Positions 28,901 through 37,900 of a DNA stretch of 64,000 nucleotides are shown here, piece by piece. This stretch comes from Paratrimastix pyriformis. Taxonomy: Eukaryota > Preaxostyla > Paratrimastigidae. The stretch lies in assembly GCA_027972325.1 (NCBI GenBank), contig JAPMOS010000001.1, forward strand, positions 467,001 through 531,000, in the 5' to 3' direction. Numbering within the stretch: the first letter of the stretch is position 1; each line of letters opens with the position of its first letter. The notes under the pieces were generated by a model, which saw only the letters and a program-made list of their open reading frames with translations, was not told where the DNA came from and searched no databases. Position numbers and translations under genes: made by a program.

Positions 28901-31900
28901 CCACGATCAATCTCAACCGAGGGTCCAATCCTCTTGCCTCTGTCAGATGCGGCAACTTCATACTTGGGCTTGTCCTGAGACGTTTTGATACTTCCCTCAA
29001 GATGAGCCTCGACTGGATCAGCCTCCACGCTCAAGCCCCCGATGGAACGGAGCTCTTGCTCGCCTCCTCCAAGGCCAGCGATTTCCCGAAGTTGCCTGTT
29101 CTTGCCGCTCAAGGTCTGAGACATGCCTGTTTGTCTCTTGAGTTATAAGCCAATTTCTTCCAGCATGCCCTGAGGAGCCGAGGAAATTGGTGGAAGTGAC
29201 ATATGTATCGGTTGTTCCGAATTGCAAAACTCCGAATGCGGTGACCAGCACCTTGTCGATTGCGGCTGATTCGTTGATGGTCAACGCGCACAGAAAGGTG
29301 ATCATCCTCTTCTCAAGCTACTGGGTCGACATTGTGACCGGGCGGAAACCTGCCTCCGTGGAACCCGCTCCCACCAGACCGGCCGGCGCGGTGTTTCAGC
29401 TCATGTTCCAGTTCAACCACCTGGTTGTGCGAGCAATCAACGACCTTCACGCAGACCAGGGCGTGTCCTTGGTCGGGGAGCTGGAAGTTGACGGCCTGAA
29501 GTTTCGAATGCAAAGCTCGTCGGGCGAATCCCGGATCGGGGGATCTCTTTCTGAGATTCGAGTCGTCAGCCAGAACCCCTCTGCACCAGAGGGAAAGGAG
29601 ACGATCTTGCAACTACCGATGACAGACAAGGTCTGGTCTTCGACCTTCCGACATCGGATCATTATTTTCTTTAGGCGAACGACGCTGCCCTTGTGATCGA
29701 GTACACGACCGAGTACGTGCCCCCACCGCGCCAGTATCGGCTTCGTGTGCGGTGCGTCTCACCCCGTCTGGTGCTGCGGCCCGAGTTCTTCCATGCCCTG
29801 TCGCGTTACGTTTCCGAGACGCACACCATCAGCGCCAGCGTGACCCAGACCCTTGCCCAGACCCTCGAGGCGGCCCAGCACCAGTCGGCCGTCCTGCATC
29901 TCGATGTGGGCATGGACGATCTGGTGGTGGCCGCGCCGGCCGGTGGTCCGGCCAGCCGCGATGGTGTGGTGGCACGCTTTGGGGCTCTCCAGATCACCAA
30001 CCGGGCCGCCGCCGCTGCAGGCCTTCCTGGAGCGCTGCCACCGCAAGGGCCACCGCCACAACAAGAGGGCGCCATCTGGGATGTGGAAGAGGACTGCTTT
30101 GATGTGCGCACCATTTCGCTGGTGCACAGCACCGACTGCGTGGGGGTGCTCGTGGGCCCTTTCCCGAGTCTTCTTGCCGCCGCCGCCGCCGCCGCTGTCA
30201 GTCTTCCCGCAAGCTCCCATGATGCTGCTTCTTATGCTGTCACTGCCGCCGCCGCCACCACCACCACTGCCGCCGCTGCCGCTGCCGCCGGGCCAATCCT
30301 GAGCCCGTTTGATTTCCATTTTTCGATTGTTCGCCCGTTGGCGCACCACGTCCCCCAACTCGACGCGTCTCCCTGTCCTCCGGAGCGGTGGGAGATTCAG
30401 GCTACGCTACCCCTCTTCGAGGCGTACATTTCCGAAACCAGCGTGGTGCGGATTATGGAGATGATCGACACACTCCGCCGCCTTGCTCCGTCGGCCGCCG
30501 CCGGTGCAGCGACAGCGCCACAGCAACAGCAACAGCAGCAGCAGCAGCAGCAGCAGCAGCAGCAGCAGCAGCAGCAGCAGCAGCAGCAGCAGCAGCAGCA
30601 GCAGCAGCAGCAGCAGCAGCAGCAGCAGCAGCAGCAGCAGCAGCAGCAGCAGCAGCAGCAGCAGCAGCAGCAACAGCAAGAAGCGTCCGCCGCTCGTGTG
30701 CCTGTAGAATACCGTGTCAGTGCCAGCTTTCCGGAGGTGCGTCTCCATGTGGCCCACGCGGACCCCGATCCCACTTCAGGCGAGCCCGACGTGCAATTGG
30801 CCTGCGTTCGACTGGGCCGGGGCACCTTCGAGTTGGGCCTGCTGCCCAGCCGGATCGTCACCAACCTCACCGTGGGCTGGCTGGTCATCTTGGACCACCA
30901 GCAGGAGCTGGCCGAGGCGGCAGATGTGGCGGCAGCTGCCTCCCTTCCCTCCGGATCTCCGGGTGATGGTCTTGCCCTGGCCACTGTCGACCCCGCCCAG
31001 ATCCCCACCGATACATTGCTGGGGTCTTCGTTGGACGCTCACTTCCCCACTGGCGCAGAACTGACCCGACTCACGTGGGGCAGCCCCAGTCTGGGCCCCG
31101 ACGCGCTCCCGCCCTTGGTCCAAAAGACACCGTGGTGCCGGGTGCCGCCGTCGCCGCTGCCACAGCAACAGCATCCGGACCCTCTGGCTGCCGGCTCCGA
31201 GTACTTGGTGCGTTTCCAGTACGTGACCTCGCCCACTGGGCGCCAGATGCTCCTGGAGATGCAGCGGCTCTTCCTCAACCTGAACCGGGAGGCACTCTTT
31301 GGCCTGATCGACTTCTACTACTCGCTCATGCAGCGCCTTGCTGATCGGGCGGCCGCCGTCGCCGCAACTGCACCTGCGACCACTGTGATGGCCACGCCGA
31401 CGACCACCTCTCTATCGCCGCCACCGGCATCGGCACCATCGGCACCGCCGGCCCAGCAAGGACTGCCTTTCGAGCTGGCCTTCCGGATGAGCTCGCTCTT
31501 CCTGGTGGTCAAGCGGGACCAGGAGCAAGGACAGAAGAAGATCGGATCGGTCCATGTGCAGGCCCTCTCCTACCACCTACTCACGCGAGCCCCTTCGATG
31601 TCGATGCGCATCAGGCTGGGCTCGGTGGAGCTCTTCGACCTGAGCCACCTCAACGGGCCATCCACGCCCGACGGCATGTGCAGTGTCTATCCCCAGGTAT
31701 TTTCGTTTGGGAAGGTGGTGCGCCGCCAGGCCTCGGCCCTGAATCTCCTTGGCGGCGAGAGGCAGGAGAAGGAAGAAGAGGCGCTGCCCCCGAGTGGCGG
31801 CGGCGGCGGCGGCGTCGACGGGGCATCCCCTGTGACTGCAGCAGCAGCCAATTCCCCTCGGCTGACGGCCATGAGCGGCGACGACGATGGGGGCGACGAT

Positions 31901-34900: not shown

Positions 34901-37900
34901 GCCGCCGCCGCTGTCAGTCTTCCCGCAAGCTCCCATGATGCTGCTTCTTATGCTGTCACTGCCGCCGCCGCCACCACCACCACTGCCGCCGCTGCTGCCG
35001 CCGGGCCAATCCTGAGCCCGTTTGATTTCCATTTTTCGATTGTTCGCCCGTTGGCGCACCACGTCCCCCAACTCGACGCGTCTCCCTGTCCTCCGGAGCG
35101 GTGGGAGATTCAGGCTACGCTACCCCTCTTCGAGGCGTACATTTCCGAAACCAGCGTGGTGCGGATTATGGAGATGATCGACACACTCCGCCGCCTTGCT
35201 CCGTCGGCCGCCGCCGGTGCAGCGACAGCGCCACAGCAACAGCAACAGCAGCAGCAGCAGCAGCAGCAGCAGCAGCAGCAGCAGCAGCAGCAGCAGCAGC
35301 AGCAGCAGCAGCAGCAGCAGCAGCAGCAGCAGCAGCAGCAGCAGCAGCAGCAGCAGCAGCAGCAGCAGCAACAGCAAGAAGCGTCCGCCGCTCGTGTGCC
35401 TGTAGAATACCGTGTCAGTGCCAGCTTTCCGGAGGTGCGTCTCCATGTGGCCCACGCGGACCCCGATCCCACTTCAGGCGAGCCCGACGTGCAATTGGCC
35501 TGCGTTCGACTGGGCCGGGGCACCTTCGAGTTGGGCCTGCTGCCCAGCCGGATCGTCACCAACCTCACCGTGGGCTGGCTGGTCATCTTGGACCACCAGC
35601 AGGAGCTGGCCGAGGCGGCAGATGTGGCGGCAGCTGCCTCCCTTCCCTCCGGATCTCCGGGTGATGGTCTTGCCCTGGCCACTGTCGACCCCGCCCAGAT
35701 CCCCACCGATACATTGCTGGGGTCTTCGTTGGACGCTCACTTCCCCACTGGCGCAGAACTGACCCGACTCACGTGGGGCAGCCCCAGTCTGGGCCCCGAC
35801 GCGCTCCCGCCCTTGGTCCAAAAGACACCGTGGTGCCGGGTGCCGCCGTCGCCGCTGCCACAGCAACAGCATCCGGACCCTCTGGCTGCCGGCTCCGAGT
35901 ACTTGGTGCGTTTCCAGTACGTGACCTCGCCCACTGGGCGCCAGATGCTCCTGGAGATGCAGCGGCTCTTCCTCAACCTGAACCGGGAGGCACTCTTTGG
36001 CCTGATCGACTTCTACTACTCGCTCATGCAGCGCCTTGCTGATCGGGCGGCCGCCGTCGCCGCAACTGCACCTGCGACCACTGTGATGGCCACGCCGACG
36101 ACCACCTCTCTATCGCCGCCACCGGCATCGGCACCATCGGCACCGCCGGCCCAGCAAGGACTGCCTTTCGAGCTGGCCTTCCGGATGAGCTCGCTCTTCC
36201 TGGTGGTCAAGCGGGACCAGGAGCAAGGACAGAAGAAGATCGGATCGGTCCATGTGCAGGCCCTCTCCTACCACCTACTCACGCGAGCCCCTTCGATGTC
36301 GATGCGCATCAGGCTGGGCTCGGTGGAGCTCTTCGACCTGAGCCACCTCAACGGGCCATCCACGCCCGACGGCATGTGCAGTGTCTATCCCCAGGTATTT
36401 TCGTTTGGGAAGGTGGTGCGCCGCCAGGCCTCGGCCCTGAATCTCCTTGGCGGCGAGAGGCAGGAGAAGGAAGAAGAGGCGCTGCCCCCGAGTGGCGGCG
36501 GCGGCGGCGGCGTCGACGGGGCATCCCCTGTGACTGCAGCAGCAGCCAATTCCCCTCGGCTGACGGCCATGAGCGGCGACGACGATGGGGGCGACGATGC
36601 GCTGTGCGTGGAGTGGACCAGCACGGCGCTGCCCGAGCCCGAGCGCACCTTGCACATCCGGGCGGCCTCGCTGCAGTTGGTTCTGCTCTCCGAATTTGTG
36701 CGCACCATGGGCGAGTACGTCCGCGACACGGCCGCCATCCAGCAGATGGTGCAGCGGACCCTGCGCAAGACCCTCGATGCGGCCGTGCAGCGGCCCGCGG
36801 GTGCAGGGGGTGTTCTCTCGCCGTTGCTCCACCTGGATGTGGATCTGCGGCAGCCCGTTGTTGTGCTGCCGACGGGGCTCACCTCGGGCCGGGCTCTGGT
36901 GGCCTGTCTGGGCCACCTGCGACTGACCAACGAGTACCCCGGGCAGACCGCCACCGTGCCGTCCTCGCCTGCCACCGCCACCAACCTCGTCGTCCCGGCC
37001 CTTCAAGCCGCTGGGGTCTCGTCGACCACCACGCCCGACGTCCTCGGGGAGACCAGCACCCGGCTCACTCGCTTCCTGCGGGCCGAGTCGCGCTCGCATC
37101 TGCCTCTATCCCCGCCCCTGTTGTTGAGCCCTTCCTGCCCCACGGCGAGCGATGATGGCGGACGTCCGGCGGATGGGCCGCCAACCGAGCAGCAACAACA
37201 ACACGTGGACCCACGGATGGATATCACTCACGTTTCGCTGACCCACATCGGTGTGGTTTCGGTGTGCCTCCCCATTGGCGTCGATGCCCCGCCACTGGCC
37301 TCCGAGGCTGCCCAAGCAGCCGGTCGTCCGGCGGCCGCTGCCTTGTCTCCTTTTCCGGACGCGCGGCGGCGGCGGGGCTGCTTCAGCTTCGAGGAGTACC
37401 TGCCCACGCAGGCCTTCCCACCCGAAGGTCCCCATGCGACCCTCTACGACCGGTTGCTCCATCCTTTTTCGGCCCTTGTCGATGTGGCTCCTCTGCTCAG
37501 CGGTGAGCTCCTTCAGCGTGTCCCCACACAGGTTTGCCACGCTGTTCCACCCTCTTTCATTCCTTTCTTTTCTGTCAGGTCATGGGACATACCACTGCTG
37601 TTGTCCTTTCTCTCAATGAGGAACAGATCTTGACGAGCTGGCTCCTCTACCAACGTTCCTTGACGTCCTTCTTCCAAACACCCTCTTCGCCACCACCTCC
37701 CGATCAAGTTCAACCTCCGCTTCCTTCGGCTCCTTTATCTACACCGTCTGAAGGACCTTCTGTCTCCCGGGAAAAGCTCCAACTCCAACTGGATCTTGAC
37801 CAACTTGTTATCTCACTTGCCACTGGTGTCCATGGGTCTGCAATCCAGCGCCACTTCCTCTTCTTCACCACATCTCCCTCAAGCTCCGATCTGCCGCTTC

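Follow-up and report, generated by a model that had tools for sequence, protein, structure and literature searches.

How can one gene hold two copies of a 3.1-kb exon that differ by no substitution, when the exons following each copy have diverged until their silent sites are saturated? The question is raised by a VPS13-family gene of Paratrimastix pyriformis, located in a stretch of 64,000 nucleotides (assembly GCA_027972325.1, contig JAPMOS010000001.1, positions 467,001 to 531,000 of the forward strand) that is called the window below and to which coordinates refer. The sequence comparisons indicate an old tandem duplication of about 1,200 residues in which only the large uninterrupted exon remained identical. 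Gene conversion between the two copies, restricted to coding sequence and continued over a long time, is the probable cause. The gene and its twin exons, termed A and B, are placed as follows.

25700-46830, plus strand: VPS13-family gene, limits approximate, 52 edited exons with 5,616 codons summed.
29675-32833, plus strand: exon A, 1053 codons, phase 0-0 (DNA alignment, gene model).
34391-37531, plus strand: exon B, 1047 codons, phase 0-0, free of substitutions relative to exon A (self-BLAST, alignment).
30521-30679, plus strand: glutamine tract of copy A, 53 codons (49 CAG, 4 CAA).
35234-35377, plus strand: glutamine tract of copy B, 48 codons (44 CAG, 4 CAA).

The gene model was obtained by dynamic programming over codons and splice sites and edited by hand from 58 to 52 exons (exon Q, described below, was rebuilt and a single-base exon dropped); it is crude, with an uncertain 5' end and several uncertain small exons. 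A self-BLAST aligned positions 29669-32844 and 34385-37543 over 3,177 columns with 0 mismatches and 3 gaps. In the DNA alignment, copy A matched base for base in the blocks 29669-30277, 30281-30532 and 30548-32840; copy A additionally carries an Ala codon (30278-30280) and five CAG codons (30533-30547), and the third gap is a single base in the downstream intron. Between the exons proper there are 0 substitutions in 3,141 aligned positions, and their indels are confined to simple repeats. Both are single uninterrupted open frames, the exon starts lie 4,716 bp apart, and in each glutamine tract the four CAA codons stand near its two ends. A proportion of differing silent sites (pS) of 0.005, obtained from the protein alignment of A and B, was attributed to a gap misplaced next to CAA/CAG positions and rejected, the DNA alignment being free of substitutions. 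On the left the identity begins 6 bp inside the upstream intron (CTTTAG); on the right it ends 7 bp inside the downstream intron (GTTTGCC), followed by the 1-bp indel and four further matching bases. An earlier note on this DNA had described a near-identical twin exon, differing by five CAG codons and one Ala codon, with identity stopping 6-7 bp into the introns on both sides; alignment and self-BLAST bear out all of this.

The intron bases common to the flanks of A and B exceed those of most intron pairs. Among the 741 pairs formed from 39 short introns of the edited model (A/B pairs included), at least 7 donor bases were common in 10 and at least 6 acceptor bases in 11. Part of the sharing is splice consensus; the donors of this gene often read GTYTG. 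This consensus is itself unusual (in the 39 short introns, position 3 is C in 27 and T in 11, position 5 is G in 31). A genome-wide DNA search over 56.06 Mb in 495 contigs, with simple repeats skipped and only the best candidates scored, listed 27 matches, namely the two full copies and 25 short ones (42-71 bp) that hit an Ala-rich stretch; a third full copy was not among them. Within the surrounding 261 kb (C1:400001-661000), 17 self-matches reach at least 150 bp and at least 85 % identity; the A/B repeat is the longest, and one variable number tandem repeat accounts for 13.

The exons and introns around the twins tell of a different history. Exon P precedes copy A; Q and R follow copies A and B, respectively.

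29164-29630, plus strand: exon P, preceding copy A (gene model).
29631-29674, plus strand: intron before copy A, 44 bp, last 6 bases in common with the intron before B.
32834-32879, plus strand: intron after copy A, 46 bp, first 7 bases in common with the intron after B.
32880-33142, plus strand: exon Q1, diverged sister of R1 (edited gene model).
33143-34118, plus strand: intron inside Q, 976 bp, corresponding in codon position and phase to the 48-bp one in R.
34119-34194, plus strand: exon Q2 (gene model, Q-R comparison).
34241-34345, plus strand: exon Q3, ending in phase 0 before copy B.
34346-34390, plus strand: intron before copy B, 45 bp.
37532-37578, plus strand: intron after copy B, 47 bp.
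37579-37835, plus strand: exon R1, diverged sister of Q1 (Q-R comparison).
37836-37883, plus strand: intron of R, 48 bp, matching the 976-bp one in Q in position and phase.
37884-38185, plus strand: exon R2, sister of Q2 and Q3 together, 3' end uncertain, a further intron possible.

The pieces of Q measure 263, 76 and 105 bp. Q and R share 48 of 123 aligned residues (39 %, shuffle z 32) and, over the aligned codons, 181 of 369 bases (49 %); the longest word common to the two regions is 10 bp. The proportions of differing sites were pS 0.80 for silent and pN 0.40 for replacement sites (from an earlier model of R, in which the 48-bp intron was read as coding); the silent sites are saturated, and since pN lies below pS both Q and R are under some constraint. 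P gave z 0.0 against Q and 1.9 against R, so Q and R form a specific sister pair. The identity of Q and R is about that of two related motifs inside exon A, alpha1 and alpha2 (43 of 105 residues identical, z 19), and by this rough measure the duplication would not be young. Exons A and B would be expected to look like Q and R had they not exchanged sequence, yet they show no difference at 3,141 positions. The earlier note had called the following exons about half identical, which is right as to their relatedness and slightly generous as to the figure; its old tandem duplication is supported by the sisterhood of Q and R, their common intron position and pN below pS, and silent divergence, proposed there for comparison, is indeed unequal between the big exon and the exons behind it. 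The introns flanking both copies have sizes common in the gene and only a faint residual similarity, partly splice consensus (12 of 500 and 2 of 500 shuffles were as good), in agreement with the claim that non-homologous introns form the borders. The 976-bp intron of Q stands in a model where 33 of 51 introns measure 43-60 bp; it had no Rfam match at the gathering threshold in a scan of the window and folded no better than 20 shuffles.

From these patterns the following course of events appears probable. An ancient tandem duplication would have copied one large exon with the small exons after it, giving modules of about 1,200 codons each. That both remained in use is supported by open frames, consistent phases and an excess of silent over replacement differences between Q and R. 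Small exons and introns would have gained substitutions, indels and changes of intron size until no stretch was long enough to recombine, and the pieces of Q probably dropped out of the exchange because of their shortness and rapid divergence. The uninterrupted 3.1-kb exon may have retained its pairing homology, so that gene conversion between A and B kept homogenising it, halting at the end of the homology just within the introns; the remaining differences would be slippage in the CAG and Ala runs after the last exchange. As a guess, the CAG tract of about 50 codons might have been the source of the breaks that started the exchange. The sole support for an initiating role of CAG is a result from yeast, where, in the accessible part of the report, a nuclease break inside a CAG tract was repaired by gene conversion between alleles (PMC3991675). 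Silent-site identity of paralogues despite an old duplication is present here, and so is an identity that ends where the homology ends.

The guanine plus cytosine (GC) content of fourfold-degenerate sites was considered as a further sign of conversion. It was 478/622 = 0.77 in exon A and 1114/1770 = 0.63 in 29 other exons (Fisher p 1.2e-10). The 29 were chosen from 50 in the edited model and are for the most part among its longer ones; their frames were picked by hand, and the 48-bp intron of R was counted as coding. The highest equal-sized block among the gene's other exons reached 0.70. GC-biased conversion was dropped from proof to hint, since nearby long open frames span an equal range. 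Several points weigh against long-running conversion. Across 53 regional open frames the fourfold-site GC was 0.55-0.94, and 0.77 is ordinary there (the frames are non-overlapping, of at least 450 codons, taken from the 261 kb, not all of them necessarily genes, and include A, B and the VPS13 N-terminal stretch). Conversion tracts need not stop at exon borders, and covering 3.1 kb to both ends would require a long tract or many events. P has no detectable similarity to Q, so the left end of the duplicated unit is approximate. Finally, conversion is deduced from the sequence pattern.

The absence of substitutions would also fit a single recent conversion in which one exon, already diverged, was overwritten by the other, in either direction. 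A copy diverged as far as R is from Q would offer little opportunity for pairing, least of all at both ends, and if the divergence had been only intermediate, held down by earlier conversions, this would be the favoured model itself. We consider a single late event unlikely; the re-homogenisation proposed in the earlier note holds for the homogenised silent sites and is hard to sustain as one recent event. Similarly unlikely is an assembly artefact, one real exon written twice by the assembler. The copies do differ only as alleles might, in repeat lengths, and the case was judged from the assembly. Identity ends at both splice sites, though assemblers ignore exon borders; the flanks of the copies are different yet related and in the correct reading phase, the same kind of block precedes both Q and R, and the window contains no N. 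A recent, exon-precise insertion, in which exon A was copied together with a few intron bases into an intron between Q and R, is less credible still. It would fit borders that lie 6-7 bp outside the exon, above the consensus sharing of most intron pairs, but removal of B would leave an intron of about 79 bp (39+40), a class (70-90 bp) found in 4 of the 51 model introns, while the present 45- and 47-bp introns are among the commonest lengths; moreover, Q and R are sister segments, so an intervening block is expected from the outset. Repair of exon B by cDNA or mRNA of exon A is very unlikely: it accounts for borders close to the exon ends, which DNA conversion does equally well, and spliced RNA would carry none of the 6+7 (+4) common intron bases, more than most intron pairs have. 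Coding-restricted conversion over a long time is the reading retained below.

Membership in the VPS13 family follows from the two ends of the gene and from its middle.

26419-29145, plus strand: open stretch holding the N-terminal region of VPS13 and alpha0, the first of the repeat motifs (PF12624, PDB matches).
45068-45613, plus strand: C-terminal exon (PDB chains of VPS13A, E 3e-6, and VPS13C, E 0.0087).

The N-terminal stretch matched PF12624 (VPS13_N) with E 3.4e-40 and 138.2 bits against a cut-off of 80, and the 4 PDB sequences found at E <=0.1 were VPS13, VPS13C, VPS13A and a vacuolar protein sorting-associated protein. The C-terminal exon had no Pfam match above cut-off, and the VAB domain (PF25036) was found in one open stretch with E 0.23 and 10.3 bits, below its cut-off of 22.6. 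Residues 760-856 of exon A (alpha2) matched VPS13C with E 0.0011 in the PDB. A profile of alpha0, alpha1 and alpha2 found the PDB chains of VPS13C (E 1.6e-12, whole chain) and VPS13A (E 6.4e-4); on VPS13C, a chain assumed to be human as the PDB listing names no organism, it marked five stretches, three of them as significant (620-724, 1187-1273 and 1700-1788). A probe made of the second half of exon A and Q reached a whole-chain E of 2.3e-4 on VPS13C by way of 1178-1275 and 1696-1791, two stretches that are weak singly (E 1.9 and 1.7) and stand 518 residues apart. The N-terminal domain and the likeness of middle and C-terminus to solved VPS13A and VPS13C chains identify the gene as VPS13, as far as sequence similarity can. 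Pfam VPS13_M remained under its cut-off of 50 bits on both exons (10.0 and 10.9), and neither P with alpha1 nor Q with alpha1 matched a VPS13 among solved structures. TFIIA, the sole Pfam match above cut-off in exon B (40.5 bits, cut-off 36.2), lies on the Gln tract and was rejected as composition, and the Huntingtin chains that are the best PDB matches of the whole exon A are likewise due to its Gln tract. A single-sequence structure model of the 396 residues from beta1 to alpha2 had a predicted local distance difference test score of 37.7 and is unusable for the repeating beta-groove fold. At E 0.001 a protein database gave no relatives among 8,000 candidates each for exon A residues 375-1053 and for the VPS13 N-terminal stretch; only candidates measuring 0.55-1.75 query lengths were considered, and as the clear VPS13_N stretch was also without match, this absence says little.

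Along the gene the order is alpha0 - P - [alpha1 - beta1 - alpha2] - Q - [alpha1' - beta1' - alpha2'] - R, with the five alpha motifs at approximate residues 672, 1113, 1846, 2314 and 3041 of the edited model. The large exon is built from two older repeats, alpha1 and alpha2, and P resembles the inside of exon A (27 of 76 residues, z 8.5). A module comprises about 1,200 residues (1,053 + 148), which supports the claim of the earlier note that VPS13 is lengthened by a module of that size. The gene has one N-terminal and four central alpha motifs, the profile finding one and two in VPS13C; the product would be a longer VPS13 bridge, with four central motifs against the two found in VPS13C.

An internal lengthening of VPS13 has precedents. 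As far as the accessible text of PMC7613979 goes, VPS13C and VPS13D carry internal duplications of about 500 residues, very close homologues of RBG5-7 being present at a distance of three domains, and the central part of human VPS13C and VPS13D was lengthened in this way, as appears to be the case here. The unit in P. pyriformis differs in its length of about 1,200 residues with two such motifs, and homogenisation is not mentioned in that part of the source. The two match sites on VPS13C are presumably its own duplicated copies, judging from their spacing of 518 residues, and the same part of the bridge may have been lengthened again here. If about 500 residues with three groove units form one duplicated piece, as in VPS13C, each module could hold about six groove units. 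Restriction of the exchange to coding sequence has a parallel in yeast: in the available portion of PMC3924837, whole-genome-duplicate pairs are alike in their coding regions through gene conversion and have lost the homology of the adjoining non-coding sequence, which is extremely hard to detect (cited as a personal communication), and purifying selection is given as the likely reason for this limit of concerted evolution. The yeast pairs are separate genes, whereas here two exons of one gene are concerned and other exons of the unit escaped. Gene conversion and concerted evolution of repetitive coding sequence are also described in the accessible part of a report on garden spider silk genes (PMC9779670); those form gene clusters, unlike the intron-bounded two-copy module within one VPS13 gene. 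An earlier report of exon-restricted homogenisation in VPS13 was not found in searches of the open-access literature, subscription papers lying outside this coverage.

Exons A and B start and end in phase 0, and R starts in phase 0. Because all these phases are 0, the loss of one module would keep the reading frame, whether it came about by crossing-over between A and B or in a message that skips Q and B; the reciprocal crossover product would hold one module more. It is a rather doubtful extension that the twin exons serve as recombination handles, triggered by the CAG tract, and that VPS13 alleles whose lengths lie about 1,200 residues apart segregate or switch. If it were true, unequal crossing-over would yield P-A-R or P-A-Q-A-Q-B-R and the length of the bridge would be labile. 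The reach of the lipid bridge may depend on the repeat number, a matter described as still to be studied in the accessible text of PMC7613979; an identical large exon in both blocks would let the effect of repeat number be told from that of repeat sequence. The single gene may also illustrate how introns bound gene conversion, the long exon being homogenised and the small split exons escaping.

The GC content is 62.9 % in the window and 66.8 % in the surrounding 261 kb. Upstream of VPS13 the window contains armadillo repeats (PF00514, E 1.1e-30) at 6031-7806 and a tandem repeat at 21959-22374 with copies 81-93 % identical by offset. Downstream, a cathepsin C exclusion domain (PF08773, E 3e-21) at 49412-49990 points to a cathepsin C-like gene. 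Further repeats were a tandem array at L016:2517-3688 (offset steps of about 43 and 86 bp, 96-99 % identical) and two 0.9-kb copies at L012:7258-8155 and 8815-9711 (88 % identical), which are apparently non-coding, the frames shown being interrupted by stops. C1:606647-625393 (L023-L025) is one open frame of 6,249 codons and has, with 0.94, the highest fourfold-site GC of the 53 long frames.

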